A DNA stretch of 29,638 nt, taken from positions 1-29,638 of the forward strand of contig NZ_CP063366.1 of NCBI RefSeq assembly GCF_016807805.1, in the 5' to 3' direction. Shown here piece by piece: positions 5,895 to 26,930 of the stretch. This DNA is from Xanthobacter dioxanivorans. GTDB lineage: Bacteria > Pseudomonadota > Alphaproteobacteria > Rhizobiales > Xanthobacteraceae. How positions within the stretch are numbered: the first letter of the stretch is position 1; each line of letters begins with the position of its first letter. A model generated the notes under the pieces. That model saw nothing but the letters and a program-made list of their open reading frames with translations. It was not told where the DNA came from and made no database searches. Made by a program: the position numbers and the translations under genes.

Positions 5895-6980
5895 TCAGGA
5901 TTTTCTTGCAGCTCGGGGAGCTGGAAGCGCGAGCACGTGGGGATCGGCGGGCTCCATGACCAAGCCGTCTTCGGTGACCTTGACGGGGATCTTGGGGAGC
6001 ACCTCCTTGAGGTGAGCCAGATCCTGGGCGAACTGCGCGCGGAAGGCGCGCGGCCTGGCGAAGGACCCCCCGAACTGTTCCGCAAGGGCCTTCCAGCTGA
6101 CGCGCAACGTGGTGTCGATGTTGTGGAGACGGTAGCCCATCCAGGTGTAGAGGTCGAGCTTGCGGGCCGATCCGGCGAACGTCCGGATGACGTGGGCGCT
6201 GACCGGTAAGGCGTGCCGGTCGAGCGATTTATAGAAGGCGTCGTTGAACGTCACCGTGTCCGGCCAGAACATCTTCTGGTCCGGGTTGATGTTGGGCGGC
6301 AGCCACACGTCGATGGAATCGAAGGGCGTGATGCGCCGGGTGCGGGCGGTCTGCCCTGCCCCGTCCCATACGCCGATCTTCATGTCACAGGCCGCGAGGG
6401 CGTTCAGCTGTTCCTTGAATGCCTGGAGGGTCCCCTTCTTCCCGCCGGTGACCGGAAAGCCCATGTCCCGGATGAAGCCGGAAAGGCTGTCGGCGATCTC
6501 GATGGTGGGGTTTTTCTGCCGGATGGCTTCGGAGCATAGGTAGATCATGATGAGCCGGGCCTTCGGACCGAAGGGCAGCGGCTGCTGCACCCATTGCTGA
6601 TCCTTGCCGGTGAGTTCACCGGCCTGGATGAGGAGGCTCATGTTGCCCTGCTGCTTCTCGAAGCGGCGCACCTCCGGCGGTGGGCGGTCATAGGGCATGC
6701 CGCAGACGGCGATGACACTGTGGATGTGGCGCAGGTCGGCCGGAGTGGGCTGGGTGTTCTCGATGACTTCCCGGATGATGGCGCGGCGACGCCGTTCGCG
6801 GGGCATGACCGCGAGGGCCTGGGCCTTGGCTTCCTCCGCCTGGCGCTCGTCGTCGCGGCGGCGCTGGGTGGTGACCAGGATGCCCACCTGCTGCTCGAAC
6901 AAGAATTTCCCGCGCGCCTCTTCGAGTTTGGCGCGCAGGTCCTCGTCGCGAATCAGGTGCTCGTCCGGGTGCCGCATCAC
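5895..6980 (-). CDS. repA: Replication initiator, RepA family (plasmid RepA_C type), copy 1
   Basis: The 361-aa protein matches, by recognisable segments, the plasmid-encoded RepA family (Pfam RepA_C) of GC-rich proteobacterial plasmids. Examples are the central LLIQAGELTG, PLPFGPKARLIMIYLCSEAI, LSGFIRDMGFPVTGGKKGTL and the FWPDTVTFNDAFYKSL block. It would bind the iterons that start 19 bp past its stop codon and recruit the host replisome. The frame starts with GTG 6980 immediately followed by ATG 6977; neither has a strong Shine-Dalgarno, and I prefer the ATG. Expression is probably controlled by the palindromes at 7059-7088, which share 19 bp with the parA promoter. This copy is intact; copy 2 carries two frameshifts. 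Confidence 0.92.
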   Translation of the reverse strand: MMRHPDEHLIRDEDLRAKLEEARGKFLFEQQVGILVTTQRRRDDERQAEEAKAQALAVMPRERRRRAIIREVIENTQPTPADLRHIHSVIAVCGMPYDRPPPEVRRFEKQQGNMSLLIQAGELTGKDQQWVQQPLPFGPKARLIMIYLCSEAIRQKNPTIEIADSLSGFIRDMGFPVTGGKKGTLQAFKEQLNALAACDMKIGVWDGAGQTARTRRITPFDSIDVWLPPNINPDQKMFWPDTVTFNDAFYKSLDRHALPVSAHVIRTFAGSARKLDLYTWMGYRLHNIDTTLRVSWKALAEQFGGSFARPRAFRAQFAQDLAHLKEVLPKIPVKVTEDGLVMEPADPHVLALPAPRAARKS

Positions 6981-7058
6981 ATCATGCTATGCCGTGCGAC
7001 AAGACGGCGGAAGGGTTCGCGGCTGGATTGTGCCCAAGGAACCGGCACGACAGCATAT

Positions 7059-7088
7059 TTATGCTATAGCATAAAAGCATAATTATGC
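7059..7088 (-). promoter_or_regulatory. repA operator/promoter palindromes, copy 1
   Basis: TTATGCTATAGCATAA (7059-7074) is a perfect 16-bp palindrome and GCATAATTATGC (7077-7088) a perfect 12-bp one. The second overlaps the stop codon of the upstream RHH gene. The 19 bases TATAGCATAAAAGCATAAT at 7065-7083 recur exactly in front of parA (8148-8166). Read leftward, TGCTATAGC resembles an extended -10 for repA. A shared regulator, most simply the RHH protein, probably binds both sites. Confidence 0.7.
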
Positions 7089-7421
7089 CTTACCCTTGCG
7101 GGTGATCTCGTCGATGGACGGGTGAAGGCGGGATGTCAGCACGTGGTCGATGCCCTCGCGCAGAAGGTCGTGGACCTTCTTGCGCTCCACATGGGCGATC
7201 TCGCGCAGCACGTCATGCACGGCGTGCGAGAGGTAGAGGCTGGTGCGGAACATGTCCCCCTCCCCTTTTGCGGGGGCGGCGGATTCCACCACGCGGGCGT
7301 CCTCGGCGGCGGGAAGCATCGGGGCTGGCGCGGGTGCGGGCTTCGCCTTTTGGGCGGCGGGGGCCTTTTGGGGCACCGTTGCAAAGTCTGATGCGTCGAA
7401 AATGGAAGGTCTGCGGCTCAT
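7083..7421 (-). CDS. Ribbon-helix-helix partner of ParA (centromere-binding candidate), copy 1
   Basis: The 112-aa protein has an Ala/Pro/Lys-rich, probably flexible N-terminus (about 1-55). A C-terminal segment FRTSLYLSHAVHDVLREIAH with KKVHDLLREGIDHVL has the strand-helix-helix pattern of a ribbon-helix-helix DNA-binding dimer. Its ATG overlaps the parA stop (ATGA) and has a strong Shine-Dalgarno (GGAGGTGA). Small RHH proteins in this position (ParG, omega and similar) act as the centromere-binding and autoregulatory partner of Walker ParAs. The repeated TTATGCT half-sites before parA and before repA are candidate binding sites. Intact here; frameshifted in copy 2 near 26131. Confidence 0.82.
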   Translation of the reverse strand: MSRRPSIFDASDFATVPQKAPAAQKAKPAPAPAPMLPAAEDARVVESAAPAKGEGDMFRTSLYLSHAVHDVLREIAHVERKKVHDLLREGIDHVLTSRLHPSIDEITRKGKA

Positions 7422-8059
7422 TGGGTCACCTCCGGGGCTTGGCGATTGATCCAGGCCCACAGGGCGCGGACTTCCTCGGCGGCGCGTCCCTTGGGGGCAA
7501 ACTCGGTCACTCCCTGCCCGGCCGCGAAAGCGTCTTGATAGTCGGTGCGGGAGCAAATGGGCGGTTCGGCCAGGAAGCCGAGGGCCGAAAGCCCGGCGGC
7601 CATGTCGGCGGCGCGTGAGCTGCGGCCGGAGCTGGGGCACTGGTTGAGCACGAAGGCAAAGGGCTTGTCACCACGCATCAGCGCCCGGACAGTCTGCTGC
7701 ACGGCCATGGCATCGAGGCGGGTCGGCCGGATGGGGACCAGGCACCAGCTGGCGGCTTCCATGGCCTTGTGGGTGGCGGTGTTGTCGGCGCCGGGCGTGT
7801 CGATGATGACCAGGCTAAAGCCCTTGTTGGCCAGGCCGCGCACCATGTCGGGCAGCTGAGCGACGTTCTTTGCCGGGAACGTCTCAACAATCGGGGTTTC
7901 AGCGGTTCGCAGCTCCCCCCAGCGTGCCAGCGAGCCTTGGGGGTCGAGGTCGAAGGCGGCGACGGTCTCACCGGCTTCCATGGCGGCAACGGCAAGGGAG
8001 GTGGCAAGGGTGGTCTTGCCGGTCCCGCCCTTCTGGGTGGTGAGGGTGATGATCTTCAT
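7418..8059 (-). CDS. parA: Partition ATPase ParA (short, type Ib-like), copy 1
   Basis: The 213-aa protein starts MKIITLTTQKGGTGKTT, with the deviant Walker A motif KGGTGKTT at residues 10-17. Downstream are the FDLDPQGS switch (about 36-43) and VIIDTPG (Walker B region). It lacks the N-terminal helix-turn-helix of long ParAs, so autoregulation probably falls to the RHH partner. It segregates plasmids by ATP-dependent binding to nucleoid DNA. The chosen start fits the family. Upstream in-frame ATGs (8110 and 8068) would add residues translated from operator DNA and are less likely. No Shine-Dalgarno is visible before the start, which is unusual. Confidence 0.93.
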   Translation of the reverse strand: MKIITLTTQKGGTGKTTLATSLAVAAMEAGETVAAFDLDPQGSLARWGELRTAETPIVETFPAKNVAQLPDMVRGLANKGFSLVIIDTPGADNTATHKAMEAASWCLVPIRPTRLDAMAVQQTVRALMRGDKPFAFVLNQCPSSGRSSRAADMAAGLSALGFLAEPPICSRTDYQDAFAAGQGVTEFAPKGRAAEEVRALWAWINRQAPEVTQ

Positions 8060-8063
8060 GTGC

Positions 8064-8166
8064 AGCATAATAGCATAAAGACGCTGTGACGCTACAGCAT
8101 AACATCTCAAGATATAAGAGCATCATTATGCTACAGCATAAAGATATTATAGCATAAAAGCATAAT
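8064..8166 (-). promoter_or_regulatory. parA promoter and repeated TTATGCT operator/centromere candidate, copy 1
   Basis: Seven copies of AGCATAA/TTATGCT lie within about 100 bp (8064, 8072, 8096, 8126 inverted, 8135, 8151, 8159). The leftward sequence TGCTATAAT (TATAAT at 8151-8146) is a perfect extended -10. The 19-bp block 8148-8166 is identical to one in front of repA. The arrangement fits a combined parA operator and plasmid centromere bound by the RHH protein. Binding is inferred. Confidence 0.72.
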
Positions 8167-8461
8167 GACGCTGCGTGTGGCCTATGTCTCTGTTTTCATT
8201 GGGTCAGGGGTTCAGCCTGCCTGAACCCCTGCCACGTGGCGAACGCGGGGAAGGGTGGGGGGCAAGGGCTTGCCCCTTGCGGGGGAGGGATGGGGCGGCG
8301 CCCCGTCCTCCCCTCTCGGCCGCGTCTGCGGCCGGAAGGTGCTGCATCAGGGATGGACGCCCGCAGGGCCGAGACCGTTTGCGGGCTCGGTTCACGACAG
8401 CCCGGCGGCCGAAGGCCGGAGGCACCGTTTGAATTAGTTTCGCATATGATTCGAAAACCAA
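8167..8461. other. Hairpin-rich GC-dense intergenic region, copy 1
   Basis: No convincing gene. In order it holds a perfect 11-bp inverted repeat (8205-8215/8221-8231, loop CCTGC) and the palindrome GCCACGTGGC (8231-8240). These are followed by GGGGCAAG-GG-CTTGCCCC (8259-8276), a hairpin around GGGGC-GGC-GCCCC (8292-8304) flanked by GGGAGG/CCTCCC, and CGGCCGC-gtct-GCGGCCG (8317-8334). Open frames through it are mere translations of these repeats. The hairpins may terminate or insulate the divergent par and 8544 transcripts. Confidence 0.6.
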
Positions 8462-8490
8462 TTGACGTGGCCAAGCCAAAAAGCTACACA
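8462..8490 (+). promoter_or_regulatory. Candidate sigma-70 promoter for the 8544 gene, copy 1
   Basis: TTGACG (8462-8467) is separated by 17 bp from TACACA (8485-8490), about 54 bp before the ATG at 8544. The -35 is 5/6 to consensus and the -10 is weak. It is the best-spaced pair in an AT-richer stretch following the hairpin cluster. Confidence 0.45.
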
Positions 8491-8543
8491 CTAAATCACC
8501 GGCGCGGATATGGTATCCGACGCGGTTTCAGATGGAGCTAAAC

Positions 8544-9218
8544 ATGGCCAATTTGTCGAGCGAACAGAATGTAACGATTACGTGGAAGATGCTGGTGGAA
8601 GCTGCCAAGAAGGCTGCGGCAGCGCAGGGCTACGCCTTGGAACGCCTTCCGGGCCGTGGGCTGTCCAATATCTGGCAGCTGACCAAGGGGGGTAAGACCA
8701 AGGTCACGTCCATCCGCACCACGCGGGATCGCTGGGTTGCCTTCCCCCCGTTGGCGGGCGGCACCAAGTGGAAGACCCTGGACGAGGTGGACACGGTTCT
8801 GGTGGCCACGGTGGATGCCCGGGAGAACCCTCAGAATGTGCAGGTTTACATGTTCCCCGCTGACGACGTGCGAAAGCGCTTCAATGGGTCCTATGCGGCC
8901 CGGATCAAGGAGGGGCTGAAGGTCCAGGACAATTTCGGCATGTGGGTCTCGTTGGACCGCGATGAGCGCCCGGTATTCAGTGTGGGTTCGGGCATCATTG
9001 AGCACTACAAGCCCATCGCGATCTACCCGTTGGCCGACTTGGCGGCCGGAACCGCTGGCGAGGAGAGCGAAGCCGAGGCCGAAGAGGCCGCAGCTGAGAC
9101 TGCCGCGCCGACCCTTACCACCATTTCAGATGTGATCTCGTGGGCGCGCGAGCGCGTGGCGCAGATCGCGGGCGTGCAGCTGTCCGCTGTGAAGCTCGAT
9201 CTCAAGATCGAGTGGTGA
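8544..9218 (+). CDS. Conserved unknown protein with acidic linker, 224 aa, copy 1
   Basis: The first ~170 residues look like one globular alpha/beta domain, with recognisable blocks LERLPGRGLSNIWQL, SIRTTRDRWVAFPPL and VQVYMFPADDVRKRF. An Ala/Glu-rich linker (EESEAEAEEAAAETAA) and a short C-terminal helix-and-strand unit ending KLDLKIEW follow. I recall similar uncharacterised proteins on alphaproteobacterial plasmids, but no named family. The ATG at 8544 is chosen because GGAG lies 6 nt upstream; the ATG at 8532 has none. It sits alone between par and the toxin-antitoxin pair, with its own candidate promoter. A stability or defence role is possible but unsupported. Intact here, frameshifted in copy 2. 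Confidence 0.78.
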   Translation: MANLSSEQNVTITWKMLVEAAKKAAAAQGYALERLPGRGLSNIWQLTKGGKTKVTSIRTTRDRWVAFPPLAGGTKWKTLDEVDTVLVATVDARENPQNVQVYMFPADDVRKRFNGSYAARIKEGLKVQDNFGMWVSLDRDERPVFSVGSGIIEHYKPIAIYPLADLAAGTAGEESEAEAEEAAAETAAPTLTTISDVISWARERVAQIAGVQLSAVKLDLKIEW

Positions 9219-9226
9219 GGTAAATC

Positions 9227-9256
9227 GGGGGAGGGGAAGGGCGCCCCTCCTCCCCC
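9227..9256 (+). terminator. Hairpin after the 224-aa gene, copy 1
   Basis: GGGGGAGG (9227-9234) pairs with CCTCCCCC (9249-9256), and AGGGC/GCCCT can pair inside, starting 8 nt after the stop. No T-run follows, so it is a terminator-like hairpin only. Confidence 0.4.
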
Positions 9257-9288
9257 TCGACCGCTATTCGAATGCCACGCCCTTTGTA

Positions 9289-9322
9289 TTTCACAGTGAA
9301 AATACGTATTGTCAGTATGACA
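9289..9322 (+). promoter_or_regulatory. parDE operator candidates, copy 1
   Basis: TTTCAC-A-GTGAAA (9289-9301, perfect) and TGTCA-GTA-TGACA (9310-9322, perfect) lie in an AT-rich stretch 45-80 bp before parD. Antitoxins of the ParD family autorepress through such palindromes. TTGTAT (9285-9290) and TATTGT (9307-9312), 16 bp apart, could be the promoter that they cover. Confidence 0.6.
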
Positions 9323-9366
9323 GTGTAATATCGTGTGCTATAAGGGAGGAAAGAAAGGGTGCGAAC

Positions 9367-9642
9367 ATGAGAACGAGTAAACCGGTGACGGTCACGCTGG
9401 GCGACATGGCGGAGCGGGTCGATGCCCTGCGGGTGTCCGGGCGCTATGCGTCCACGAGCGAGGTCCTGCGCGCCGGGGTGCGGGCTCTGGAGCGGGAACA
9501 GGCGGCGCTGGATGCGTACATGCGGGAGGAAGTCCGCAAAGCCCTCGATGATACGCGGCCAAGCGTCCCGTCGGAGGATGTGTTTGCGCGGCTGAAGCGG
9601 CGCCACCAGGAGGAAGCGAAAGCGGCCGGGCGTGGCGTTTAA
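9367..9642 (+). CDS. parD: ParD-family antitoxin, copy 1
   Basis: The 91-aa protein begins RTSKPVTVTLGDMAERVDAL and has the segment VSGRYASTSEVLRAGVRALE. This is the ribbon-helix-helix pattern typical of type II ParD (CC2985-like) antitoxins. The C-terminal half (LDDTRPSVPSEDVFARLKRR) would wrap the toxin. The antitoxin gene comes first and overlaps the toxin gene by 11 nt, as in most parDE operons. It neutralises the toxin and represses the operon through the upstream palindromes. Together the pair stabilises the plasmid by killing or arresting plasmid-free cells. Confidence 0.92.
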   Translation: MRTSKPVTVTLGDMAERVDALRVSGRYASTSEVLRAGVRALEREQAALDAYMREEVRKALDDTRPSVPSEDVFARLKRRHQEEAKAAGRGV

Positions 9643-9940
9643 GGTCGTATTTCGCCCCCGGGCGGCCGAGGCGCTTGATCAGCTTTACACCTATATCAGC
9701 GAGCGCGGCGGCGCGGACGTGGCCCTTGGATATGTTCTGAAGATCGAGGAGCAATGCGCGCGCTTGGCGGAGATGCCGGAGCGGGCACCCCTCCGGCCGG
9801 AGGTTGGACCTGGTGTGCGCGTGCTCTCATTCCGGCGTCGGGTATCGATTGCCTACCGGATCACGGGGAAGGTGGTGGAGATCCTGGGCGTGTTCTACGG
9901 CGGCCGCTTCATGGAAGGCGCGCTCAGCGACGATCTGTAA
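9632..9940 (+). CDS. parE: ParE-family toxin, copy 1
   Basis: The 102-aa RelE/ParE-superfamily protein has FRPRAAEALDQLYTYI at the N-terminus, a middle helix ending CARLAEMPERAP, and the C-terminal strands VRVLSFRRRVSIAYRI and VEILGVFYGGR that are characteristic of ParE. ParE toxins block DNA gyrase; family members vary, so the target is inferred. The start is GTG 9632, inside the antitoxin gene, giving tight translational coupling. The length is normal for the family. Confidence 0.92.
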   Translation: MAFKVVFRPRAAEALDQLYTYISERGGADVALGYVLKIEEQCARLAEMPERAPLRPEVGPGVRVLSFRRRVSIAYRITGKVVEILGVFYGGRFMEGALSDDL

Positions 9941-9952
9941 AGCGCCAGGCGG

Positions 9953-10277
9953 GGCTTGAAGTCGCTCCGCCACTTCCTACCTAGAGCGGGTTACGAAATA
10001 GCCGCAGCGTGTTTGAGAGGTCACCCCCTAGGCTTAAACGGTAAAAAACCTCTCATCTGCTGGCCTGTTGCGTGAAGGCGGCTACCCCAAGGGCCTCGCG
10101 CATAGAGAGAAAGGGTTGCGAATGTTCGCAGTCTTTTGTCTCGAAGCCAGGCAGTCGGGGCATAGCAAGTGCTATCGACTCAAGCTGGGATTTTATATCC
10201 CGGGCTTTGCTTCGTTAGCTCTTCTGGCTCGACTGTTTTAGACAGGAAGGGCACCAGCTCCGGCTGGTGCCCTTTTT
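9953..10277 (+). ncRNA. Structured intergenic region, candidate small RNA ending in an intrinsic terminator, copy 1
   Basis: This ~320-nt stretch after parE has no credible gene but contains a series of stems. They are GAAGT/ACTTC (9959-9976), GAGAGGT/ACCTCTC (10015-10054), TGCGAA-TG-TTCGCA (10117-10130), AGTCG..ATAGCA-AG-TGCTAT-CGACT (10153-10180) and AAGCTGGGAT/ATCCCGGGCTT (10182-10207). A strong terminator lies at 10247-10277. The order of hairpins ending in a rightward terminator suggests a transcript, either a free RNA or the parDE 3' UTR. No known RNA family is recognised. The terminator is certain; the RNA is inferred. Confidence 0.45.
10247..10277 (+). terminator. Intrinsic terminator between parDE and the WGR gene, copy 1
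   Basis: A perfect 12-bp stem AAGGGCACCAGC/GCTGGTGCCCTT with loop TCCG is followed by a run of five T (counting the stem's end) on the plus strand. It serves the rightward parDE/RNA transcript. The leftward resolvase-WGR transcript also reaches this stem 13 nt after its stop codon, so it may act in both directions. Confidence 0.88.
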
Positions 10278-10289
10278 GTTTCTAGATAC

Positions 10290-10523
10290 TTAGATGGGCT
10301 GGGCGTATCCCTTGCGGACCTTCTGGCGCTGGCACTTGTCCAGGGCCGCCTCGGCCAGGGCAGGGGAGGGGAACGGCGTGGAGGCCACCCGGCCGGGGGA
10401 GCCGATCCGGCCCCACTCGCGCACCAGGCACCATTCACCGAACAGGCTGGGCTGCACGGTGAGCATGTAGAACCTGGCCATGTTGCGGCTGGGATCAATC
10501 CTGCGCAGCTGCACGGTGCTCAT
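10290..10523 (-). CDS. WGR-domain protein, 77 aa, copy 1
   Basis: Almost the whole protein is one WGR domain. It shows the RNMARFYMLTVQPSLFGEW strand pair, the diagnostic WGR triplet within LVREWGRIGSPG (Trp37-Gly38-Arg39), and the C-terminal helix AEAALDKCQRQKVRKGY. WGR domains bind nucleic acid, usually beside DNA breaks in PARPs and in bacterial DNA-acting proteins. The gene starts inside the resolvase stop (ATGA overlap), so it is translated with the resolvase; it could assist DNA binding during resolution, which is inference. Intact here, frameshifted near 29228 in copy 2. Confidence 0.87.
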   Translation of the reverse strand: MSTVQLRRIDPSRNMARFYMLTVQPSLFGEWCLVREWGRIGSPGRVASTPFPSPALAEAALDKCQRQKVRKGYAQPI

Positions 10524-11113
10524 GGGCGGGGCCTCAGCCTGGAGATGGTGGAGCGGCTGACGTTGAAGATGCGCGCCAGGTCCGCGAGCTGGGCGCCGTC
10601 CGCCAGGCGCTCACGCACCTCCTGCTTCTGCTGGGGGCTCAGAGCCGATCGGCGGCCCATCACCTGACCGCGTTCCTTGGCACGGGCGCGGCCCTCCGCC
10701 GTCCGGGTGCGGATCAGGTCCCGTTCCACGTCGGCGAGTCCGCCGAGGACGGCGAGCATCAGGCGGCCGGTGCTGGTCGCCGTGTCGGCCCAAGGCTCGG
10801 CGAGGGAGCGGAATTGCGCCTTCGCGTCCACGATCCGCCGGACAATGGCGAACAGGTCGAAGGTGGAGCGCGCCAGGCGGTCAATTCGAGTGACCAGCAC
10901 CTGGTCGCCCTCCCCAAGGGTGGCGAGGAGGCGGTTCAGCTCGCGCCGGTCGGCCCGGGCACCGCTGACCTTCTCCTTGAAGATGCGGGAACACCCGGCC
11001 GCCGTCAGCTGCTCAACCTGGGCGTCGAGGGTCTGGCCGAAGGTGGAGACGCGCGCATAGCCGACAAGGTTGGTGTCGGCCGAGGGGGCGTTGCGGGCGG
11101 CGCGCGGGGGCAT
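10520..11113 (-). CDS. Serine recombinase (resolvase/invertase family)
   Basis: The 197-aa protein has the catalytic-serine motif GYARVST (Ser23), the conserved arginine block VLVTRIDRLARST (about 73-84), the E-helix region GGLADVERDLIRTRTAEG, and a C-terminal helix-turn-helix ending LARIFNVSRSTISRLRPRP. Size and domain order are those of Tn3-type resolvases and plasmid multimer-resolution enzymes. A perfect 11-bp inverted repeat 27 bp upstream (11140-11192) is the likely binding site. No transposase or terminal repeats are nearby, so its job is probably resolving plasmid dimers and supporting stable inheritance. It overlaps the WGR gene by 4 nt. Confidence 0.92.
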   Translation of the reverse strand: MPPRAARNAPSADTNLVGYARVSTFGQTLDAQVEQLTAAGCSRIFKEKVSGARADRRELNRLLATLGEGDQVLVTRIDRLARSTFDLFAIVRRIVDAKAQFRSLAEPWADTATSTGRLMLAVLGGLADVERDLIRTRTAEGRARAKERGQVMGRRSALSPQQKQEVRERLADGAQLADLARIFNVSRSTISRLRPRP

Positions 11114-13418: not shown

Positions 13419-13922
13419 CTAAGCCAACGACACGGCATCCAAAAAAGCGTCGTAGAAGCTGGCCCGCATGTCCACGGGCTGGGCCTGGTCGAGCGGCAGG
13501 ACCAGAACGGCCTTTCTGGCCATGTGCTGGAGGGGCACCCCGTCCAGCTGGTCGAGCCTCACCCAATAGGCCAGGTGGCCGCCCTCGGGGTCCAGGCACG
13601 CGAAATAGATGGTGACGCGGAACATGCGGGCGAAGGCCCGCAGCTTGCGGATTTCGTCCAGGTCGAACACCAGGCCCTCGGGGTAGAGGGTCTTTGCCTT
13701 CACGTCGAACGCCACCATGCCCACGTGGGGGATGCCCACGATGTAGTCCGGGCGCTTGATGTGGCCGCGCAGCGGCACCGGGACGCTGATGGGCGATTGC
13801 TCCACATAGATGTGGGGGAGCACGGAAGCGTCCAGCCAGGCGCGGAAGGCGGATTCCGCCGCGGCGCCCTTGGCAGCGTCAGCCGGTCGGATCGGGGAGG
13901 GGCGTTGCCGCTTCTTGTTCAT
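13419..13922 (-). CDS. Candidate PD-(D/E)XK nuclease-fold protein, 167 aa
   Basis: After a basic N-terminus the core reads KRPDYIVGIPHVGMVAFDVKAK, that is, a PD (Pro58-Asp59) followed 14 residues later by D-V-K (Asp73, Lys75). Predicted strands flank both parts. This is the signature spacing of PD-(D/E)XK nucleases, with Glu23 or Glu41 as a possible further metal ligand. A helix (DLDEIRKLRAFARMF) and strand (VTIYFACLD) follow, as expected for the fold. It could be a restriction-like or repair nuclease; the family is not recognised. It lies 46 bp after the 211-aa gene on the same strand, probably in one operon with it. Function is inferred from motif only. Confidence 0.65.
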   Translation of the reverse strand: MNKKRQRPSPIRPADAAKGAAAESAFRAWLDASVLPHIYVEQSPISVPVPLRGHIKRPDYIVGIPHVGMVAFDVKAKTLYPEGLVFDLDEIRKLRAFARMFRVTIYFACLDPEGGHLAYWVRLDQLDGVPLQHMARKAVLVLPLDQAQPVDMRASFYDAFLDAVSLA

Positions 13923-13968: not shown

Positions 13969-14604
13969 CTATCGGCGGGGGTTTCGTCCTGACGGATAGC
14001 GGCCTTCTTCCCGCAGGCGTCGCTTGACGGTAGGGCCGAGGCTCTGGCTGACGCCCGCCCTTTTGCCGTCCACGGCGCCCTGGTCCTCGGGGCGGATGCC
14101 ATAGAACGGCGCAATGCCGGGCTCGATGCCCTTCAGCATGTACTTGCGGGCTCCCCTCGGCCGATAGGCGGGGCGCATATGGATCACGGGCGCCACGGCC
14201 TGGGCGGCGGTGCCGGTGACCGCGCCCAGCCAGGAGGGAAGACGCTCACGGAAGTCCGTCACCCTGCCTTCTGGCAGGTGCACCAGCCAGTGCGCGGCGA
14301 TCACGTTGCCGCCGTTCTCCAGCACCCACGCGAAGGTCGGGCGCGCCTTGGTGTGGCCGCTGTTCCGCGGCGGTCGCCGCATCCAGGGGCTGAACTTGGC
14401 GTCCCGCAGCTTGGCGAAAATCTCGGAGGCCTGTTCCGGGGCCACACCAGCCTCGGAAAGGTTGATGGTCACAAAATGGGTCAGGGGTGTGCCCTGGGCC
14501 TCTGCGAGCGCGGGAGCGTGGTGGATGCTAGATGCGGAGCGCCGCTTGATGTGATGCGTGCGGCGACGTGTGGACCCACCAGATGGTGTCGAAGTCGGGT
14601 GCAT
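13969..14604 (-). CDS. Unknown 211-aa plasmid protein, possibly a degenerate HUH-like fold
   Basis: The N-terminal 40 residues are basic and low-complexity, so the true start may be later. The conserved-looking core contains LTHFVTINLSEAG, then ARPTFAWVLENGGNVIAAHW with LVHLPEGRV, an IHMRPAYRP segment, a YMLKGIEPG segment, and a C-terminus GVSQSLGPTVKRR. I recall similar uncharacterised proteins from alphaproteobacteria. The AAHWLVHLP segment resembles the HUH motif region (HxH-L-LH-P) of replication/relaxase enzymes with one histidine missing. That would make it an inactive or divergent relative; this is a weak inference. It lies downstream of the tRNA-like gene and upstream of the candidate nuclease, same strand. 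No Shine-Dalgarno at ATG 14604. Confidence 0.65.
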   Translation of the reverse strand: MHPTSTPSGGSTRRRTHHIKRRSASSIHHAPALAEAQGTPLTHFVTINLSEAGVAPEQASEIFAKLRDAKFSPWMRRPPRNSGHTKARPTFAWVLENGGNVIAAHWLVHLPEGRVTDFRERLPSWLGAVTGTAAQAVAPVIHMRPAYRPRGARKYMLKGIEPGIAPFYGIRPEDQGAVDGKRAGVSQSLGPTVKRRLREEGRYPSGRNPRR

Positions 14605-14721
14605 ATATACTACTAATGCCGCGATCGTGGCGGCACTCCCAGTCTGTATGTCCCCCCCACCTTATAAGAACGAAGCAAGAACGATTCGGCAAGGCCCCCG
14701 CTTGCCCTGTCCTCAGAAAAA

Positions 14722-14831
14722 TGGTGCGCGGCGGCGGGACTTGAACCCGCGCCCTCCCTGCCCGTAGAAGAGGAGGCCATCGCTCTCCCACGTCGCCAAC
14801 AGGGTGCTCTTTCCAGCTGAGCTACGCCGCG
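14722..14831 (-). tRNA. tRNA-like gene with a 39-nt anticodon loop region (inserted hairpin)
   Basis: Read leftward from 14831, a tRNA outline is seen. It has a 7-bp acceptor stem (CGCGGCG/CGCCGCG), U8-A9, D-arm GCTC-AGCTGGAAA-GAGC with GG, and A26. It also has a 5-bp anticodon stem CCCTG/CAGGG, a 5-nt variable loop AGGGC, and T-arm GCGGG-TTCAAGT-CCCGC. The encoded 3' end is C-ACCA. Between the anticodon-stem strands are 39 nt, not 7: TTGGCGA, then a 10-bp helix (CGTGGGAGAG with CTCTTCTACG, two G-U pairs) capped by a 10-nt loop, then GG. If the extra 32 nt were absent the loop would be TTGGCGA (anticodon GGC), but the acceptor lacks the G3-U70 of tRNA-Ala. One extra base precedes CCA. It starts 10 nt after the upstream gene's stop and is followed by TTTTT. 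Confidence 0.7.
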
Positions 14832-14841
14832 AAACTCGTCA

Positions 14842-15327
14842 TCAGCCCTCGTTGCTGTGAACCAGGCGCGGCCGCTTGCGCTGCACCCGCTCCTGCCTGT
14901 CCTTCTTGGCCTTCTCGCGCTCGGCGATCTTCTCCTGGGCGAAGGGTGTGGCGGCCTTAATCAGTCCATCGAAATTGTATTTGTTGGGGATGCTGCCGTG
15001 TTGGGTGTGGCGACGCTCCTCACGGTGCAGGAGGTTGGCCGCTTCGAGAGCGCGCATGTGCTTTTGCACGGTGCGCTTGGTGACGCCGATGGCCTTGGCG
15101 ATGGTGGCGACGGTGGGCCGGGGCAGTTCCTCCTTGCTCCACCAGTAATGTGACAGGTGGATGAGAATGTTCATGTCGATGGGGCGGAGGCCCAGGGCTT
15201 CCTGCTTCTCGATGATGATGTTCGGGATGACGTTCCATCCCGCATCCATCAGGGTCTTGGACCACTTTTTTTCATTGGTCTTGAGCGTTTCGGTCTCGGT
15301 CTTTTTAGTCGCGGCTGCGGTATCCAT
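14842..15327 (-). CDS. Winged-helix (HTH_36-like) DNA-binding protein, 161 aa
   Basis: Residues about 28-120 form a winged helix of the kind found in plasmid replication and regulator proteins. The segment WNVIPNIIIEKQEALGLRPI is followed by DMNILIHLSHYWW, the helix-turn-helix TVATIAKAIGVTKRTVQKHM, RALEAANLL and a wing (REERRHTQHG). The N-terminus is Lys/Thr/Glu-rich, and the C-terminal 40 residues form a highly charged, probably helical tail (AEREKAKKDRQERVQRKRPR). The ATG at 15327 has AGG 7 nt before it. The tRNA-like gene begins 10 nt past the stop, so both must share a transcript unless there is an internal promoter. It is a likely local regulator or accessory initiator. Confidence 0.82.
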   Translation of the reverse strand: MDTAAATKKTETETLKTNEKKWSKTLMDAGWNVIPNIIIEKQEALGLRPIDMNILIHLSHYWWSKEELPRPTVATIAKAIGVTKRTVQKHMRALEAANLLHREERRHTQHGSIPNKYNFDGLIKAATPFAQEKIAEREKAKKDRQERVQRKRPRLVHSNEG

Positions 15328-15617
15328 CTCGGTGCCTCGTGGTCGGCGTCTGAGGTGAATATCGGCGCGGAAACGTCTGGAATCAATGGAAGTAGGGGTG
15401 AACGTTTATTCGCCCGCTAGCGACTCCAGAGGCGCCCGTGGGCGAATTCTAGGCCGGGGGGCCGGGCGGCGGCCGTGACACCCAAAGAAGGACGTATCGT
15501 TAAATAGGACGACACGTCTCAACGACGAAGCGTCGCTACTACTCACAGGACGTTACGGGGGGTGGCCGAAGATTCACCCGGTCTGCCGCAGGTTTCTCGA
15601 TTTTGCCCGGCTGGGTC
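15328..15617. promoter_or_regulatory. Intergenic region with operator-like inverted repeats
   Basis: No gene seen. GACGTATCGT (15491-15500) and ACGACACGTC (15509-15518) form an inverted repeat with one mismatch around an AT-rich 8-bp centre. CGACG-AAG-CGTCG (15523-15535) follows directly. These are good candidates for an operator of the winged-helix gene or a terminator of the gene to the right. The rest is GC-rich and featureless. Confidence 0.45.
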
Positions 15618-15929
15618 CTATTCGGTGCCGGTCCTCCCACCTGGAATGACGCGGAGCGCGCCGAGGGCGGGCGGCAAGTCGGGAGGGCGTGGGGCTCCTG
15701 GCCGGAGGTCAGTGAACCGCGCACCGCATTTCGCCTGGTACTTGCGCGGCGGGCGTCGCTGCGGATCCCTCCAGGGGCATCCGTAGGCGAGGGCGTCCAG
15801 CAGCTCCTCCAGGGTGATTTCGGCGCCGTGGAGCTGGGCGAGACGGGCCAGGCGGTAGCTGCCATGCCGTTTGCACAGGGGGCAGTCCACCCGGACGACG
15901 ACATAGGGGAATTGCCAAAGCCGCTCCAT
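15618..15929 (-). CDS. Small zinc-ribbon-like protein, about 103 aa
   Basis: The protein contains VVVRVDCPLCKRHGSYRLAR, then HGAEITLEELLDALAYGCPW, and later KYQAKCGARFTDL. This gives four cysteines (16, 19, 51, 68) in a CxxC...C...C layout suited to zinc binding. I recall small uncharacterised proteins with this pattern on alphaproteobacterial mobile elements. The frame is open far upstream (to 16448), but that part translates the GC-rich hairpin array and looks non-coding. The ATG at 15929 is chosen as the first start before the conserved part, although no Shine-Dalgarno is evident; an upstream GTG (15935) is possible. Function unknown. Confidence 0.6.
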   Translation of the reverse strand: MERLWQFPYVVVRVDCPLCKRHGSYRLARLAQLHGAEITLEELLDALAYGCPWRDPQRRPPRKYQAKCGARFTDLRPGAPRPPDLPPALGALRVIPGGRTGTE

Positions 15930-18026: not shown

Positions 18027-19859
18027 CTACGGCTGAAACTCCTTGTCCTTCTTAGGCACAACTGTCTTTGCGGCCATCTGCTGGGGAGTGACGGCCGGAG
18101 TTGGGGCGGAACCTGACGTTATTGGCGCGGGCGCGGCAGGCGTGGCTTGGATACCAGGAGCCCGATTTGGTTGCGTCGCCATGTGCGGCGCTCGTTGGGC
18201 TTGCGGGGTTGGCGGTGTCGCTGATGGCGCTTTCTGCGGCAGAGGCTGCGCCACTACGTGCGGAGCGCGATGGGGTTCCGGAGGCCGGATAGATGGAGAT
18301 TGAGCAGGTGCGGCAGGTTCCCGCGCCACATGAGGCGCGCGCTCTGTTGAGGGCGCCGCTGCGGCGGTTCGTTGCCGATCTAAGGAAGTGTCATAGGCCG
18401 CCTTAGCGATATTTAAACGCTTCTGCGCCTCTCGGTGATCGCGAACAGCATCAGGCAGATCTCTACGCGCCAGCCAGGAGTCCTTCCTCCTCTCAGAAGC
18501 TCCTGATTTGAAAAAATCCTTTGACATAAGGCTTCCTGGACGTCTGCCAAATTCATTTTTTCTTTCGTTATTACGTAATAAATTGTAAAATTTATCGTCA
18601 CTATTATGCTTTGAAAAATTGTTCATTTTTCTTTCTGCTTCTATCGGATCTAAAAAAGATCTTTTCATCAATTGATCGTAGCTAGACTTCGCTTTATCGG
18701 CATTAACTTGAGCATTTACCAGTTCGAATCTATGCCTTCTTAGAATATCATCTTCTATAGACATCGATTTTTCCTTGTCAAAAGAGAGTAACTGCCCTAT
18801 TTCTACACCATGATAGAGTGGATTGACCGTTGGTTGTATGCTTCGGGCGAAGCCATCGGCCGCTTCATCTTGCGCCTTCCGTCCTGCAACCCCATTCGAC
18901 GTTGGCTGGAAGACGGTTGGGCGGAAATTGACGCTAAACGAGCCGCTTGGGACGCTGAGTGTGTCCGATATCGGGAGGAGATGCGAGCCAGCACCTATTC
19001 CCTGCTTCTGCGGGGTTTGGAGCACAACGACACCACCACTGTCCATTGACGGCTCAGGATGATGAATTCTGCGCAATGCTCCCAACTCCCGCTGCTGCTG
19101 ATCTGCGTCGACCGCAGCCCAAAAATCGCTAGCCCCCTCCCTTACCATGCGATTGTATCCGGGCCGGGAGCGTGACCCGTCGATCTGGGGGTAATTGATC
19201 CGCCGCGTGCGGGTCCGGCACTTAGCCATATTGCGAGCGGCGCGCTCACGCGAAACCGGCCGGGCGCCACGCCCCTCCATCGCTCGGGCCTTCGGGCCTT
19301 CGTGAATGGTAGGTGCCCGGTCGATGCCCTGGGCTTTCAGAGTACGATGGTCGATGCGCTCTTGCCGCCCGGCGAGCTCAAGGGCGGCATTCGCGTGGCG
19401 CTCCCACGCGAGACGCAGGCGCTGGGTCGAGCCATGCTCGCTCATGCCCATTACCCGCTTGCCCGTCTCCGGATCACGGTCCCGGATGATCAGGTGACAA
19501 TGGGGATTGCTCTCGTCCTTGCCCTTATCGTGATAGGCCGCCAGCCAGGGCGCTTTCCCCATTGTCACATCCTCGGCGAAGGACCGCACAAGCTGCACTC
19601 GTTGCGCAGCATTGAGCTCACGTGGAAGCGCAAGCGTGACCTTGTCGATGATGCGTGCATTCGCGCGTGACGTGTCTTCTGCCTGGCACAACCAGTCGAT
19701 GACGGATGCGGGCGCAACCGGCATCCTGGCCCCCTCCAGGCGGCTCATGGCACCAGGACGAGTGACATATCGGGCGTGAGCGGCGGCGGTATATGGCTGC
19801 CGTTGAGTAGATTTGCCGACTGCGCTGTGGTGGAGGCTGTAGATGGCCACCAGCGTCAT
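18027..19859 (-). CDS. mobA: MOBQ (MobA/MobL) relaxase, 610 aa, complete copy
   Basis: The relaxase domain (about 1-240) begins MTLVAIYSLHHSAVGKSTQR. It carries the candidate catalytic Tyr31 (AHARYVTR) and the metal-binding motif HDKGKDESNPHCHLIIRDR (His110, His120, His122), the pattern of MobA/MobL proteins of IncQ-like plasmids. It would nick the oriT 20 bp upstream and pilot the strand. Residues about 366-520 are charged, helical and encoded by clearly AT-richer DNA. The last ~90 residues are Pro/Ala-rich with RAPH-type repeats. The start at 19859 matches the family N-terminus; the frame extends 38 codons upstream through the oriT, which is unlikely to be translated. An internal ATG at 18764 with AAGGA before it could give a separate 245-aa C-terminal product. 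Confidence 0.88.
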   Translation of the reverse strand: MTLVAIYSLHHSAVGKSTQRQPYTAAAHARYVTRPGAMSRLEGARMPVAPASVIDWLCQAEDTSRANARIIDKVTLALPRELNAAQRVQLVRSFAEDVTMGKAPWLAAYHDKGKDESNPHCHLIIRDRDPETGKRVMGMSEHGSTQRLRLAWERHANAALELAGRQERIDHRTLKAQGIDRAPTIHEGPKARAMEGRGARPVSRERAARNMAKCRTRTRRINYPQIDGSRSRPGYNRMVREGASDFWAAVDADQQQRELGALRRIHHPEPSMDSGGVVVLQTPQKQGIGAGSHLLPISDTLSVPSGSFSVNFRPTVFQPTSNGVAGRKAQDEAADGFARSIQPTVNPLYHGVEIGQLLSFDKEKSMSIEDDILRRHRFELVNAQVNADKAKSSYDQLMKRSFLDPIEAERKMNNFSKHNSDDKFYNLLRNNERKNEFGRRPGSLMSKDFFKSGASERRKDSWLARRDLPDAVRDHREAQKRLNIAKAAYDTSLDRQRTAAAAPSTERAPHVAREPAAPAQSPSIRPPEPHRAPHVVAQPLPQKAPSATPPTPQAQRAPHMATQPNRAPGIQATPAAPAPITSGSAPTPAVTPQQMAAKTVVPKKDKEFQP

Positions 19860-19876
19860 TCCCCGTCGAGTGGTCA

Positions 19877-19910
19877 CAGGGTTTGCTACGCAAACCCATA
19901 AGTGCGCTCT
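19877..19910 (+). other. oriT: Origin of transfer, MOBQ type, copy 2
   Basis: Same site as 1012-1045: inverted repeat GGGTTTGC-tac-GCAAACCC at 19879-19897, then ATAAGTGCG with the expected nick after 19906. Both copies are identical here. Confidence 0.82.
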
Positions 19911-20147
19911 ACCTCTGGTTGGCACCATAAAATGCCCGCACGGTCGCCCGCAAGCCCCCAGTCTGAACGACAACTAGCACCCCCGTTGGACATCTCCGCA
20001 CAGCGCCCAATGCCAAGGCCGGCCACTCATCCGGGGGACATCACGTCAACTTAGTTGCAATTCGTGAACCGTGCACTTGCACAAGCTTCTTGCGCAGGGG
20101 AATGGTGGCGATCTAGCTAGCCCGGTTGCAACGGGAGGTAGGGGCGC

Positions 20148-20360
20148 ATGTTCAAGCTTCTTATGGGGTGCTTCCTGATCGTCGTCGGCGCGATAGTCTC
20201 GTTTATCCCGCCGTTCATTTTCGGTATCCCGATCTTGATCATGGCGGGGGGCATGATCATGACGGGCCTCGGAAAGACGACAGTTCAAGCCGCCAAAGGC
20301 GGCGCTGCGGTCGCCCGCTATGTGAAAGACCGCCGCGACGAAAAGAACGCCGGTCTTTGA
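20148..20360 (+). CDS. Small two-helix membrane protein of the transfer operon, copy 2
   Basis: Identical to 1281-1493. It has a 70-aa length, two hydrophobic segments, a basic tail and a Shine-Dalgarno GGGAGGT 8 nt before the ATG, and it ends 17 nt before the coupling protein. Family unknown; a role next to the coupling protein is inferred. Confidence 0.7.
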   Translation: MFKLLMGCFLIVVGAIVSFIPPFIFGIPILIMAGGMIMTGLGKTTVQAAKGGAAVARYVKDRRDEKNAGL

Positions 20361-20377
20361 TCAGCGGATGAAATGTC

Positions 20378-22552
20378 ATGGGTGATGCTGCCGTCATCAT
20401 CGGCTTCATGCTCGTGCTGTTCGGCCTCGGACTGTATTTCTATGTCGGCGGTCTCGGCGGCATCATCGGATCGCTTTCGGCAAACCGCACCATCGAATCC
20501 GCCCGCCGCCGGGAACACGTGCACAGCACCGCTGCCGTGCGCGCGGACAGCCTGTCTTCCCAGCCCCCCGCTTCGGCGGGGGCTGGATTTTCACGGCCCG
20601 ACATTCTTGCGGCCATCGACAAAAAATATTCCAATGACCTCACCCCCATCGAGATCCGCGTGGCGGACCTGGTGCCGGGGCTAATCTCGCGCGTCTCGCT
20701 GGAACGCATGGGCATCGCCATGGCCGACGAGCTGGCGACGTTCAAGAAGATCTACAATAACAAAGATGACGGGATGGATCGCCTGATCGGCGACACTCAG
20801 GAATCCTATCTGCGTAAGATCGCGGCCGGGGCGTTGGAAGATGCGGTGCTGACGCGCACCCTGACCGATTTCAAGGACAACGAACGCGCGGTACTCCGCC
20901 TGACCGAGATACTGCACGCCCTCGGCGAGGTGAGCGCGCGCGAGCGCATGGAAATCTTCGCCCCCATCGTGTGGAATGAGGGCAAATGCCTCGTGCGCTC
21001 CGATGTGCCGGGTTTCCGTAGCGGGGACCGACTAGAGGCACTGCGTGAACGCCTGGGAAAGCTGCTATTGGGGCATTTTGGCGAGACCGTTGCGTCAGCG
21101 GAACGCCTACAGGCGCGCTTGCGCGCGGTTTTGGCCCAGCCGGGGCGGGTCGGCGAAGGGGATCGAGCCGTGCTCGAGCGCTATTTGTTCGCCGGAGCCC
21201 GTTGGCTAGCGCCTGATTCCTCTGCCTCTTCCCTTGCGCCGCAAGGAACGAACAGCAGGACCGTGCTGCGGCTAGGCGCCTTCGAAGACGGCGGCGATCT
21301 CCTGTACGACTTGCCGCAAAGCCTCACCACCATCGGCATGCCTGGCTCGGGCAAATCGCAAACCCAGGTCGCAAGGAACCTGCTGCATTACCGGGGCGGT
21401 GCCGTGGTGGTTGACCTGAAGGGCGAACTTTTCGACATGACGGGCGGCTGGCGTCATGCGGAAGTCGGGCCGGTGCAATGTTTCGCTCCGGATCGGCCAG
21501 AGATCTCCGCCACGTTCAATCCCCTGGATTGGGTGCGCGGCGATCCGATATATGCTTGGGACGACGCCGAGCGCCTGGCCGATCTTCTGGTGGTCAAGAC
21601 CAAGGAGGCAAAAGACCCTTATTGGGAGCAGCGAGGCCTTTCCCTGGTGACCACGGCATTGTCTTACACCGCAATCGCCGCTCCGCCAGAACAGCGCAAT
21701 ATGAGCCACGTACTCAACCAGCTGTACGCCATCTCCGAGGACGAGGACCGCCAGAAATGGGCGGCCGCCTTGGCGGAAACCGGGGTAGAACAGCTGCGTT
21801 TAGAAGCTAAAGCGTTCCGCGACATGCCGCAGAACCAGCGGGAAGGCGTGTTCGAGAATGCGCGCACACAGCTGCGGGTGTGGATTTCCCCGGCGATCAA
21901 AGCCATCAGCCACACCAGCTCCATCAATACCCTGGGCCTGCGCACCGGCGCCACGCTTTACCTGTGCGTTCGGGACGAAGATCTGGAACGCTATGCGACC
22001 GTGCTGCGGCCTCTCATCGGCCTCTCCATGCGCGATCTCATGTTCGGAGGCCCTGACCGTGAAGCGCCGGTCGTCACCTTCTTCATTGACGAGGCGCCCC
22101 GCCTCGGCCGCATGGACATCCTGGAATCCATGATCGACATCGGTCGGGGCTACGGCCTGCGAGTCTGGCTTCTGGCCCAAAATATCGGCCAGTTCCGCGA
22201 GCGCTACAAAAATGCCGATGGCATGATCGGCAATTGCATGGTGCGCTGCTACATGAATCCGGACGAGGAAGACGCGCAGCGGCTCTCCCGACTTCTCAAT
22301 GAACGCGAAGGGCTTCTTGACGGACGTCGGAAGGCGCTCGTTGAGCCATGGCAACTGAGCGGTCCAGAGTATGCGGATAAGATTATTGCCTTCATTGCCA
22401 AGAATCACCCTGCTCGCTTGACCAAGGTGATGCCGCAGGATGATCTGGTGTGCTCCGGCCGCATCGGCTGGCCCCTGGGCCAGGCGGAGAAGGATGGAGT
22501 GTTGCTCACAATACTCCCCACGAGCCGGTCTCAGGCGGGGGTACAAAACTAA
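20378..22552 (+). CDS. Type IV coupling protein (VirD4/TraG/TraD family), 724 aa, intact copy
   Basis: A single N-terminal membrane region (about residues 5-32, two short hydrophobic stretches) is followed by a ~270-residue soluble segment. The motor ATPase then has Walker A GMPGSGKS (320-327), VVVDLKGELFDMTGGWR just after it, Walker B VVTFFIDEAPRLGRMD (565-580) and the sensor-like LLAQNIGQFRERY (598-610). These are hallmarks of T4 coupling proteins that hand the relaxase-bound strand to a secretion channel. The plasmid has no channel genes, so it must borrow one from a helper. An unusual N-terminal domain precedes Walker A. Start at ATG 20378, weak ribosome site, probably coupled to the upstream 70-aa gene. 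Confidence 0.93.
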   Translation: MGDAAVIIGFMLVLFGLGLYFYVGGLGGIIGSLSANRTIESARRREHVHSTAAVRADSLSSQPPASAGAGFSRPDILAAIDKKYSNDLTPIEIRVADLVPGLISRVSLERMGIAMADELATFKKIYNNKDDGMDRLIGDTQESYLRKIAAGALEDAVLTRTLTDFKDNERAVLRLTEILHALGEVSARERMEIFAPIVWNEGKCLVRSDVPGFRSGDRLEALRERLGKLLLGHFGETVASAERLQARLRAVLAQPGRVGEGDRAVLERYLFAGARWLAPDSSASSLAPQGTNSRTVLRLGAFEDGGDLLYDLPQSLTTIGMPGSGKSQTQVARNLLHYRGGAVVVDLKGELFDMTGGWRHAEVGPVQCFAPDRPEISATFNPLDWVRGDPIYAWDDAERLADLLVVKTKEAKDPYWEQRGLSLVTTALSYTAIAAPPEQRNMSHVLNQLYAISEDEDRQKWAAALAETGVEQLRLEAKAFRDMPQNQREGVFENARTQLRVWISPAIKAISHTSSINTLGLRTGATLYLCVRDEDLERYATVLRPLIGLSMRDLMFGGPDREAPVVTFFIDEAPRLGRMDILESMIDIGRGYGLRVWLLAQNIGQFRERYKNADGMIGNCMVRCYMNPDEEDAQRLSRLLNEREGLLDGRRKALVEPWQLSGPEYADKIIAFIAKNHPARLTKVMPQDDLVCSGRIGWPLGQAEKDGVLLTILPTSRSQAGVQN

Positions 22553-22687
22553 AAGTCCGGCCGCAAACGCCCCGAGGCGGTGGCTGTCCGCCCCCGCACT
22601 CCCGAGGATATTTGGACAGGGTTGGGGGACTTCCGTTAGGATTCCGGTGCGGTGCAGCCTGGGAAGGCGATGACCGTCAGGGTTGGG

Positions 22688-22723
22688 AGCCGCCCCGGGG
22701 GTCCCCCGCCGCCCGGGGCGGCT
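22688..22723 (-). terminator. Hairpin after the methyltransferase gene, copy 2
   Basis: Same perfect 12-bp inverted repeat as at 3819-3854, directly after the methyltransferase stop; no T-run. Confidence 0.55.
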
Positions 22724-23382: not shown

Positions 23383-23594
23383 TGCCCCGCCTCCCGGGTG
23401 TCGGTCTGGTCCCTGGGCTTGCGCTTGCGGATGACCAGGCGGCCGTCCACGGGGATGCAGCTGAGCCTGACGTTGAAGCCGTCGCCCTTTTCGTGGGACC
23501 AGGCAGCGCCGATGCGGGTCCAGTAGGCGGTTTCGCCCTCACCCTCGACCACGTAGACATCGTGGCTGGGAGGGGTTGCTTGGTTGCGTTTCAT
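23379..23594 (-). CDS. Conserved 71-aa plasmid protein, copy 2
   Basis: Identical to 4509-4724. Shine-Dalgarno GGGAGA 8 nt before the ATG; stop overlaps the methyltransferase start. Function unknown. Confidence 0.8.
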   Translation of the reverse strand: MKRNQATPPSHDVYVVEGEGETAYWTRIGAAWSHEKGDGFNVRLSCIPVDGRLVIRKRKPRDQTDTREAGQ

Positions 23595-26926: not shown

Positions 26927-26930
26927 GTGC

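Follow-up and report, generated by a model that had tools for sequence, protein, structure and literature searches.

An apparently new family of bacterial tRNA look-alikes, encoded behind a DnaD-like winged-helix gene and opened by a hairpin in the anticodon loop

The best-known mimics of tRNA are viral or belong to a small set of cellular RNAs. In viral tRNA-like structures and mascRNA, such mimicry recruits tRNA enzymes (PMC4810234), and the tRNA-like domain of the bacterial Y RNA YrlA has been proposed to inhibit an anticodon nuclease competitively (PMC7790460). In the systems AbiF–AbiFr and RCd22, an RNA encoded beside a HEPN toxin gene is described as neutralizing the toxin by direct binding (PMC12373285, PMC12737573), and this type III-like RNA antitoxin is given as RF03085 (PMC12373285). 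Here, we report on a plasmid gene for a tRNA-shaped RNA whose relatives form what looks like a new family of bacterial tRNA look-alikes; no recognized description of such a family was found by term searches in one open-licence library of papers. That the family and its pairing with a helix-turn-helix (HTH) gene are real we regard as practically certain.

The window, as we call the whole stretch of 29,638 nucleotides from Xanthobacter dioxanivorans that was analyzed, encodes this RNA on the minus strand at positions 14722–14831 (110 nt including an encoded CCA). A 7-bp acceptor stem (CGCGGCG/CGCCGCG; 5′ strand at 14825–14831, partner at 14727–14733) leads via U8 and A9 to a D-arm, GCUC-AGCUGGAAA-GAGC (14806–14822), that keeps A14 and GG18-19. 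The anticodon stem pairs CCCUG (14800–14804) with CAGGG (14756–14760) and is followed by the variable loop AGGGC, the T-arm GCGGG-UUCAAGU-CCCGC (14734–14750) and a 3′ end that reads C-A-CCA and runs into UUUUU. Acceptor, anticodon and T-stem correspond to helices 1, 3, and 5 of the family. The 5-bp anticodon stem encloses 39 nt (7 + 30 + 2), which begin with a bulge resembling an anticodon loop, U32-U33-G34-G35-C36-G37-A38 (14793–14799), and continue with a 30-nt inserted hairpin (14763–14792) in which CGUGGGAGAG/CUCUUCUACG form 10 pairs, including two G-U pairs, and close a 10-nt loop; the homologous helix covaries among the relatives. Upstream, a 10-nt spacer (14832–14841) separates the RNA from the stop codon of the HTH gene. 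A first description of this DNA, made from the letters alone and here called the earlier note, had claimed the full set of tRNA arms with canonical features, the 10-bp helix and 10-nt loop within 39 enclosed nucleotides, a winged-helix reading frame ending 10 nt upstream and TTTTT downstream, and we could retrace all of this base by base. The extra base that it had seen before the CCA is real in the window RNA but is no family trait, one further nucleotide being found in 8 of 42 RNAs.

Scored with the Rfam tRNA model (RF00005), as the earlier note had proposed, the window RNA reaches 50.6 bits (E 3.1e-8; cut-off 29 bits) with the insert left unmodelled; our family model R2 gives 102.1 bits to the same RNA, which belonged to its training set. 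Free folding returns the acceptor, D- and T-arms together with a single long hairpin as the anticodon arm. The folding energy is unremarkable (z = −1.3; 19 of 200 shuffles were equally or more stable), so that the evidence for this RNA being real rests on its relatives and not on energy. ARAGORN calls it tRNA-Arg(ACG) at 14726–14797, from a different start, which is a misreading; a gene of this kind can thus be listed by a tRNA finder as if it were a normal tRNA-Arg.

The two ends of the window (1–10771 and ~18864–29638) duplicate each other with 99.86% identity, 15 gap openings and 0 mismatches, and judged by this repeat the window is a circular plasmid of ~18.87 kb assembled with overlap. 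Some ORFs within the repeated ends are intact in one copy and in a different frame in the other. No sigma-70-like promoter was found at 14550–15650. The window's own ORFs downstream of the RNA (211 and 167 aa) have no Pfam match; the 167-aa ORF (13419–13922, minus strand) contains a PDY...FDVKAK stretch, which we take to resemble the PD-(D/E)XK nuclease motif.

Searches for relatives led to a final set of 42 RNAs at 39 loci, comprising the window, 8 plasmid records, 21 genome contigs, 2 viral contigs and 7 further genome stretches (loci are cited by L numbers). The carriers are plasmids, islands, chromosomes, and virus-like contigs of Alpha-, Beta-, and Gammaproteobacteria. When plasmids were searched by blastn for the RNA plus flanking DNA, matches came from Caulobacter, Acidisoma, Spongiibacter, and Paraburkholderia, among others, tblastn with the window HTH protein led to additional loci, and Methylosinus and Sinorhizobium plasmid records supplied additional members. 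A DNA pattern (D-arm, 42–72 nt, GGCAG, T-arm) scanned in one genome per species for 84,980 species returned 34 stretches. By inspection, 21 loci with 24 RNAs belong to the family, three of them carrying two copies each; 13 stretches were dropped as neighbouring tRNAs, archaeal introns, or chance. On viral contigs the strict pattern gave 40 stretches, with L247 and L250 as family members, and a loose pattern at least 120, among whose listed matches were other odd phage tRNAs and artefacts of neighbouring tRNAs; the pattern CTTTCTAC...GGGCAG had no match in viral contigs, and a phage collection yielded short T-arm matches only. A looser pattern matched 13 of 397 genomes of the window's order, five of which (5/397) carry the RNA by inspection, as do 3 of 248 genomes of a second family searched in the same way. 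By these counts the distribution of the module is sporadic.

R2 did not discriminate on whole genomes, where ordinary tRNAs reach ~70 bits and the tallies of 385/385 and 398/398 are meaningless; for additions from this search only matches of ~104–112 nt among those listed were considered. L174 (72.7 bits) and L179 (68.0 bits) were left out of the set, L029, equal to L295 in length and RNA and taken as one contig with it, is represented by L295, and L303 was dropped in favour of L022 for a like reason. Also outside the counts stands L015 of Paraburkholderia ginsengisoli (2936–3063), a longer variant of 128 nt that scores 44 bits and lies behind an HTH gene. The RF00005 cut-off is passed by five of seven RNA-bearing plasmid loci (40.6–47.9 bits), L010 and the variant L015 failing it. 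Two tandem RNA copies follow one HTH gene in L019 and L037, and in L033 the entire HTH–RNA pair is present twice.

Base pairing across the family was assessed in a sequence-only MAFFT alignment of 30 RNAs (A1) and in a model-fitted alignment of 42 rows (A3), which leans towards structure. In A1, 93.7% of 814 pair cells are standard, and 0 of 500 shuffles were as high on any of five measures; versions with a slid structure were 37–52% paired. The corresponding value in A3 is 95.6% of 1147 cells. Two-sided changes occur at 7/7 pairs of the acceptor helix (paired cells 93.3% in A1, 94.9% in A3) and at 3/5 pairs of the T-stem (99.3 and 99.5%), and the anticodon stem, whose 3′ strand is partly contained in the search pattern, is paired in 91.3 and 99.1% of cells. 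The D-stem is invariant across the family but mostly set by the search patterns, and the columns of D-stem, GGCAG, and T-loop, being largely fixed in this way, prove nothing; outside the patterns lie the inserted helix and positions 15, 33–38, and 48. For the inserted helix, the earlier note had suggested looking for homologs with compensatory changes, and these exist: A1 contains 41 two-sided changes in its 30 RNAs with 87.3% of the cells paired, and A3 contains 72. Positions 15 and 48, a pair that is not part of the model, are G-C in 23 RNAs, A-U in 16, A-C in 2, and C-A in 1; 39 of 42 thus fit, against a mean of 20.6 and a maximum of 33 in 10,000 shuffles. Covariation of 15 and 48 is known for tRNAs in general, and its recurrence here argues that the family RNA is held in the tRNA L-shape. 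U8 and A14, present in 42/42, are weak evidence as both lie inside the search patterns. Taken together, the sequence comparison shows a gene with the complete tRNA core, whose anticodon loop is opened by a covarying hairpin.

Positions 32 and 38 are separated by 29–44 nt in the 42 rows, vs. the 7-nt loop of an elongator tRNA, and the distal hairpin of 24–38 nt continues the anticodon stem. The sequence G[ACG]?CA, a motif picked after viewing the sequences, occurs in 29/42 inserts (shuffled mean 17.6, maximum 28 in 2000) and hints at a conserved apical loop. At the 3′ end, CCA follows directly after position 73 in 20/42 RNAs and after three further nucleotides in 2/42, and in 12/42 the 8 nt that follow position 72 contain no CCA. 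Position 73 itself is C in 18, U in 13, A in 8, and G in 3 RNAs, and the pair 1-72 is non-standard in 11/42.

The 5′ half of the anticodon loop is retained as a bulge with the consensus Y32-U33-N34-N35-C36-K37-A38. In the 39 rows that could be counted at positions 32–39 (L010, L036, and L299 are shifted in the model alignment and omitted), U33 is found in 35, position 34 is U in 32, G in 6, and a gap in 1, C36 is found in all 39, position 37 is G in 21 and U in 18, and A38 is found in 35. The triplets 34–36 are UUC (26), GUC (3), UGC (3), GGC (2), UAC (2), GAC (1), UCC (1), and one gapped; the commonest, UUC, matches tRNA-Glu. All complete triplets are anticodons for GNN codons, which follows automatically from a fixed C36 with U or G at position 34; the informative features are C36 itself and the lack of A and C at position 34, even though changes from U to C are usually the most frequent kind. 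The pattern fits anticodon mimicry, with few triplet events that come from related sequences.

The usual partner of the RNA is the HTH gene, which in the window (14842–15327, minus strand) encodes a 161-aa winged-helix protein. This protein passes the Pfam cut-offs for DnaD_N (7.3e-8; 33 vs. 27 bits) and HTH_36 (1.1e-6; 28.8 vs. 25 bits), and the solved structures nearest to the family profile are those of DnaD (2vn2, 7.7e-12; 2v79, 2.3e-10). An HTH relative lies upstream on the same strand at 33/39 loci, with a spacing from its stop codon to the RNA of −10 to 60 nt (median 9). As a few plasmid loci had been found via the HTH protein, the fairer figure is 20/21, counted on the genome contigs that the RNA pattern had picked out. 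A comparison of 28 loci shows the HTH family in 25 and no other gene family of wide occurrence; a recombinase-like one recurs in 5. HTH and RNA distances correlate at 33 loci (Mantel r 0.26; 0/5000 permutations as high), which is a modest value. Comparative data thus show a conserved module of an HTH gene followed by the RNA gene, and the latter appears not to be a remnant; a small regulator gene can carry an RNA partner immediately past its stop codon. No HTH gene was recognized upstream at L003, L005, L295, L297, L301, and L302. In L301, L302, and L297 the RNA occurs without the HTH gene, the next gene encoding ribonucleotide reductase in L301 and having a similar start in L302; these RNAs are perhaps a domesticated form. 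Conversely, 17 HTH loci (L007–L009, L011–L014, L016, L269–L277) contain no family RNA, the best chance score being 17 bits. One of them, the 5.7-kb Vibrio plasmid L012, carries two PAGEV RNAs (800–1018 and 3554–3772) besides its HTH relative.

Pfam or PADLOC scans covered a downstream ORF at 28/39 loci; outside annotated records ORFs were picked by length, and some may be spurious. At least 5/39 loci have an Abi/HEPN-type gene within 163 nt of the RNA. On the same strand behind the RNA these are AbiTii (51 nt, L002), AbiJ/Abi_C (18 nt, L032), and a HEPN gene (17 nt, L045); convergent to it are Abi_C (3 nt, L250) and Ymh (163 nt, L037), a HEPN family member (PMC3710099). In the two convergent cases any action of the RNA would have to be in trans. 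L010 encodes a methyl-directed restriction-like protein beside the RNA and L027 a convergent ParE, and the neighbours in L033 and L050 are homologous proteins of 331–332 aa without Pfam match, whose motifs read like those of restriction-fold nucleases. A phmmer search of the L050 and L298 neighbours against the PDB gave nothing below E 0.2, and no defence-type family adjoins the RNA at the remaining scanned loci. Some loci have neighbours of housekeeping type, such as NnrS and ribonucleotide reductase, and presumably also LigA and ClpA, recognized by eye from the sequence starts.

A further link to abortive infection comes from sister loci, in which HTH relatives without the tRNA-shaped RNA precede Abi_2/AbiD-like genes. 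Pfam Abi_2 is found above the cut-off in L273 and L276 and below it in L008 and L275, PADLOC reports PD-T4-5/AbiD in L008, L009, L275, and L276 and PD-T4-5 in the short L274, and L277 has the gene layout of the other sister loci. Just before the Abi gene, L008, L009, L273, L274, L276, and L277 share a conserved element of ~50 nt, which is more divergent in L275; against Rfam, no family reached the cut-off in the sister loci and none was of interest by E-value. AbiF is described as being inhibited by an adjacent noncoding RNA (PMC12373285, PMC12737573). We consider the ~50-nt element a candidate proteobacterial antitoxin RNA of the AbiF type. By analogy, the slot between HTH gene and effector appears to be filled by an RNA of one of two kinds, AbiF-type or tRNA-like. 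Our preference for a role as decoy or antitoxin comes mainly from this parallel; since the HTH family also adjoins Abi genes in loci lacking the RNA, the link to defence may be a property of the HTH gene.

Two loci bear on mobility. In L300, a chromosome, the module lies in a segment (2632–3829) that is absent from the five relatives inspected; no other match inside the segment was found among those listed for 14 genomes of that genus, and ARAGORN detected no tRNA in the intergenic segment holding the module. In L299, a segment with the module at one end interrupts tRNA-Ser(CGA) near oriented position 4293. This tRNA gene is broken at the anticodon stem, is intact in L305–L307, and is apparently an integration site. 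Other unusual tRNA-like genes were met in viral contigs. Virus-like contigs L240, L243, L244, L246, L249, L259, and L266 have tRNA genes with a ~30-nt D-loop insert; L058, L081, L115, L133, L151, L158, and L166, also virus-like, have tRNA-like genes with ACAGCA-motif inserts between D-arm and T-arm; and a tRNA-like gene of phages recurs in L231, L234, L242, L245, L248, L251, L253–L255, and L258, its inserts between anticodon stem and T-arm being very long and alike.

What the RNA does can be framed as follows. The reading that we favour, at a probability of about 0.4, is a trans-acting, uncharged tRNA mimic that would target anticodon-loop ribonucleases of the HEPN/Abi type, whether by decoying or sensing them or as an RNA antitoxin. 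HTH gene and RNA would share one transcript, from which RNase P and the 3′-end enzymes could free the RNA thanks to its likeness to tRNA. The hairpin would bar it from the ribosome, and with mostly C or U at position 73 efficient charging is unlikely, so that the RNA might circulate uncharged. Enzymes that grip the anticodon arm of tRNAs would then meet its anticodon-like bulge, whose triplet is mostly the UUC of tRNA-Glu; the RNA would act in trans on the ribonucleases, and the HTH protein might set the RNA dose via autoregulation. Abortive-infection settings are perhaps where a role as RNA antitoxin or sensor would be played. Counting against this reading, an Abi/HEPN neighbour was recognized at only 5/39 loci and none in the window, co-inheritance of HTH gene and RNA is modest, and several loci have neighbours of housekeeping type. 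More specifically, the RNA might represent a new class, a bait derived from the tail of the transcript of a DnaD-like regulator that displays a chosen anticodon triplet of GNN-reading tRNAs on a rigid, ribosome-proof scaffold, by which mobile elements restrain or sense HEPN ribonucleases that cut anticodons, the triplet varying with the target; this version we consider doubtful.

The main rival requires no nuclease target. The RNA might instead serve the HTH transcript as a 3′-UTR, in end formation by RNase P, stability and dose, or it might serve the HTH protein as part of a ribonucleoprotein or as a co-repressor that senses the state of tRNA. The regular upstream position of the HTH gene at a median distance of 9 nt, its standing as the only widely shared gene family, and the significant if modest co-inheritance all speak for such a partnership, and we take it seriously without making it our first choice: the 17 HTH loci without the RNA indicate that the protein does not need it, no upstream HTH gene is recognizable at 6/39 loci, and the kept anticodon-like bulge would go unexplained. 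It also has to be asked whether the gene encodes a genuine tRNA, the hairpin being an intron placed immediately after the anticodon and spliced out by an unknown bacterial enzyme; the family would then supply tRNAs that read GNN codons, the one in the window being Ala-GGC. The introns of archaeal and eukaryotic tRNAs occupy nearly the same place, all complete triplets are real anticodons, the tRNA core is kept, and CCA directly follows position 73 in nearly half of the RNAs (20/42). Nevertheless, the host genome (99.95% complete; the window's genome was the only host examined) has no match to tRNA-splicing endonuclease (PF01974) or RtcB (PF01139), for which controls were positive in 4/14 and 9/14 genomes, respectively. 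Moreover, ordinary tRNAs are present: ARAGORN recognized 30 anticodon types in the host around the best 30 of 46 listed tRNA matches, window RNA included, with Ala(GGC) and Arg(ACG) among them and Glu(UUC) and Ala(UGC) outside the 30 examined. The prevalence of C and U at position 73, the non-standard 1-72 pairs, and the sporadic distribution also count against this reading, and the internal loop of ~7 nt vs. 1–2 nt is unlike the bulge-helix-bulge, which is defined as 3-4-3. With neither splicing enzyme detected, ordinary tRNAs present, and position 73 mostly C or U, a spliced tRNA appears unlikely, at least in this host. A group I intron was rejected as well, the insert measuring only ~32 nt and no group I intron being among the Rfam matches.

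A tRNA remnant or an attachment site formed by integration, as the interrupted tRNA-Ser(CGA) of L299 might suggest, is very improbable: covariation over 42 copies, the kept tertiary pair, and the conserved upstream gene contradict it, no tRNA was detected at the L300 segment, and a covarying family at 39 loci refutes it as a general explanation. The window is a tandem-redundant plasmid assembly, which could raise suspicion of a sequencing or assembly artefact; the RNA lies in the non-duplicated part, though, and many genomes that were sequenced separately contain family members, so that resequencing of the insert is unnecessary and the chance of an artefact is negligible. The four readings offered by the earlier note have thus parted ways: a regulatory mimic or decoy is favoured, an intron-bearing tRNA is disfavoured, and a remnant is excluded in general. 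For a trans-acting mimic, a family with a whole tRNA core and an opened decoding loop would permit a clean test of restraint on anticodon nucleases and other tRNA enzymes, and the variation of the triplet makes the idea of target matching directly testable.

Among known systems, tRNAs with archaeal or eukaryotic bulge-helix-bulge introns resemble the family in that their insert, too, lies in the anticodon loop on the 3′ side of the anticodon; the family differs from them in that no splicing enzymes were detected in the host and in the other internal loop, the conserved partner gene, and the unusual position 73. Bacterial tRNAs with group I introns share the anticodon-loop insert, but not its size of ~32 nt or the lack of an Rfam group I match. 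Viral tRNA-like structures and mascRNA belong to other hosts, and the mascRNA model scores 16.1 bits vs. a cut-off of 42.5. The HTH partner is likened to the DnaD N-terminal winged helix and HTH_36 by its Pfam and profile matches; it differs as a stand-alone gene of ~160 aa. The closest published idea that we found is that for YrlA, the partner of Rsr/Ro60, likewise a bacterial noncoding RNA with a tRNA-like domain as described. The family RNA, in contrast, has the form of an entire tRNA, leaves the acceptor end free, and follows a DnaD-like HTH gene. A Y RNA was rejected, with no Y RNA family among matches up to E 10 and no TROVE/Rsr domain (PF05731; control positive in 1/14 genomes) in the host genome. 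From AbiF–AbiFr, as far as that system is described, the family is set apart by its tRNA shape, usually single copy (tandem in L019 and L037), HTH partner, and a recognized Abi/HEPN neighbour at only 5/39 loci, and it is likened to it by the sister HTH loci, which keep a conserved element in the same slot.
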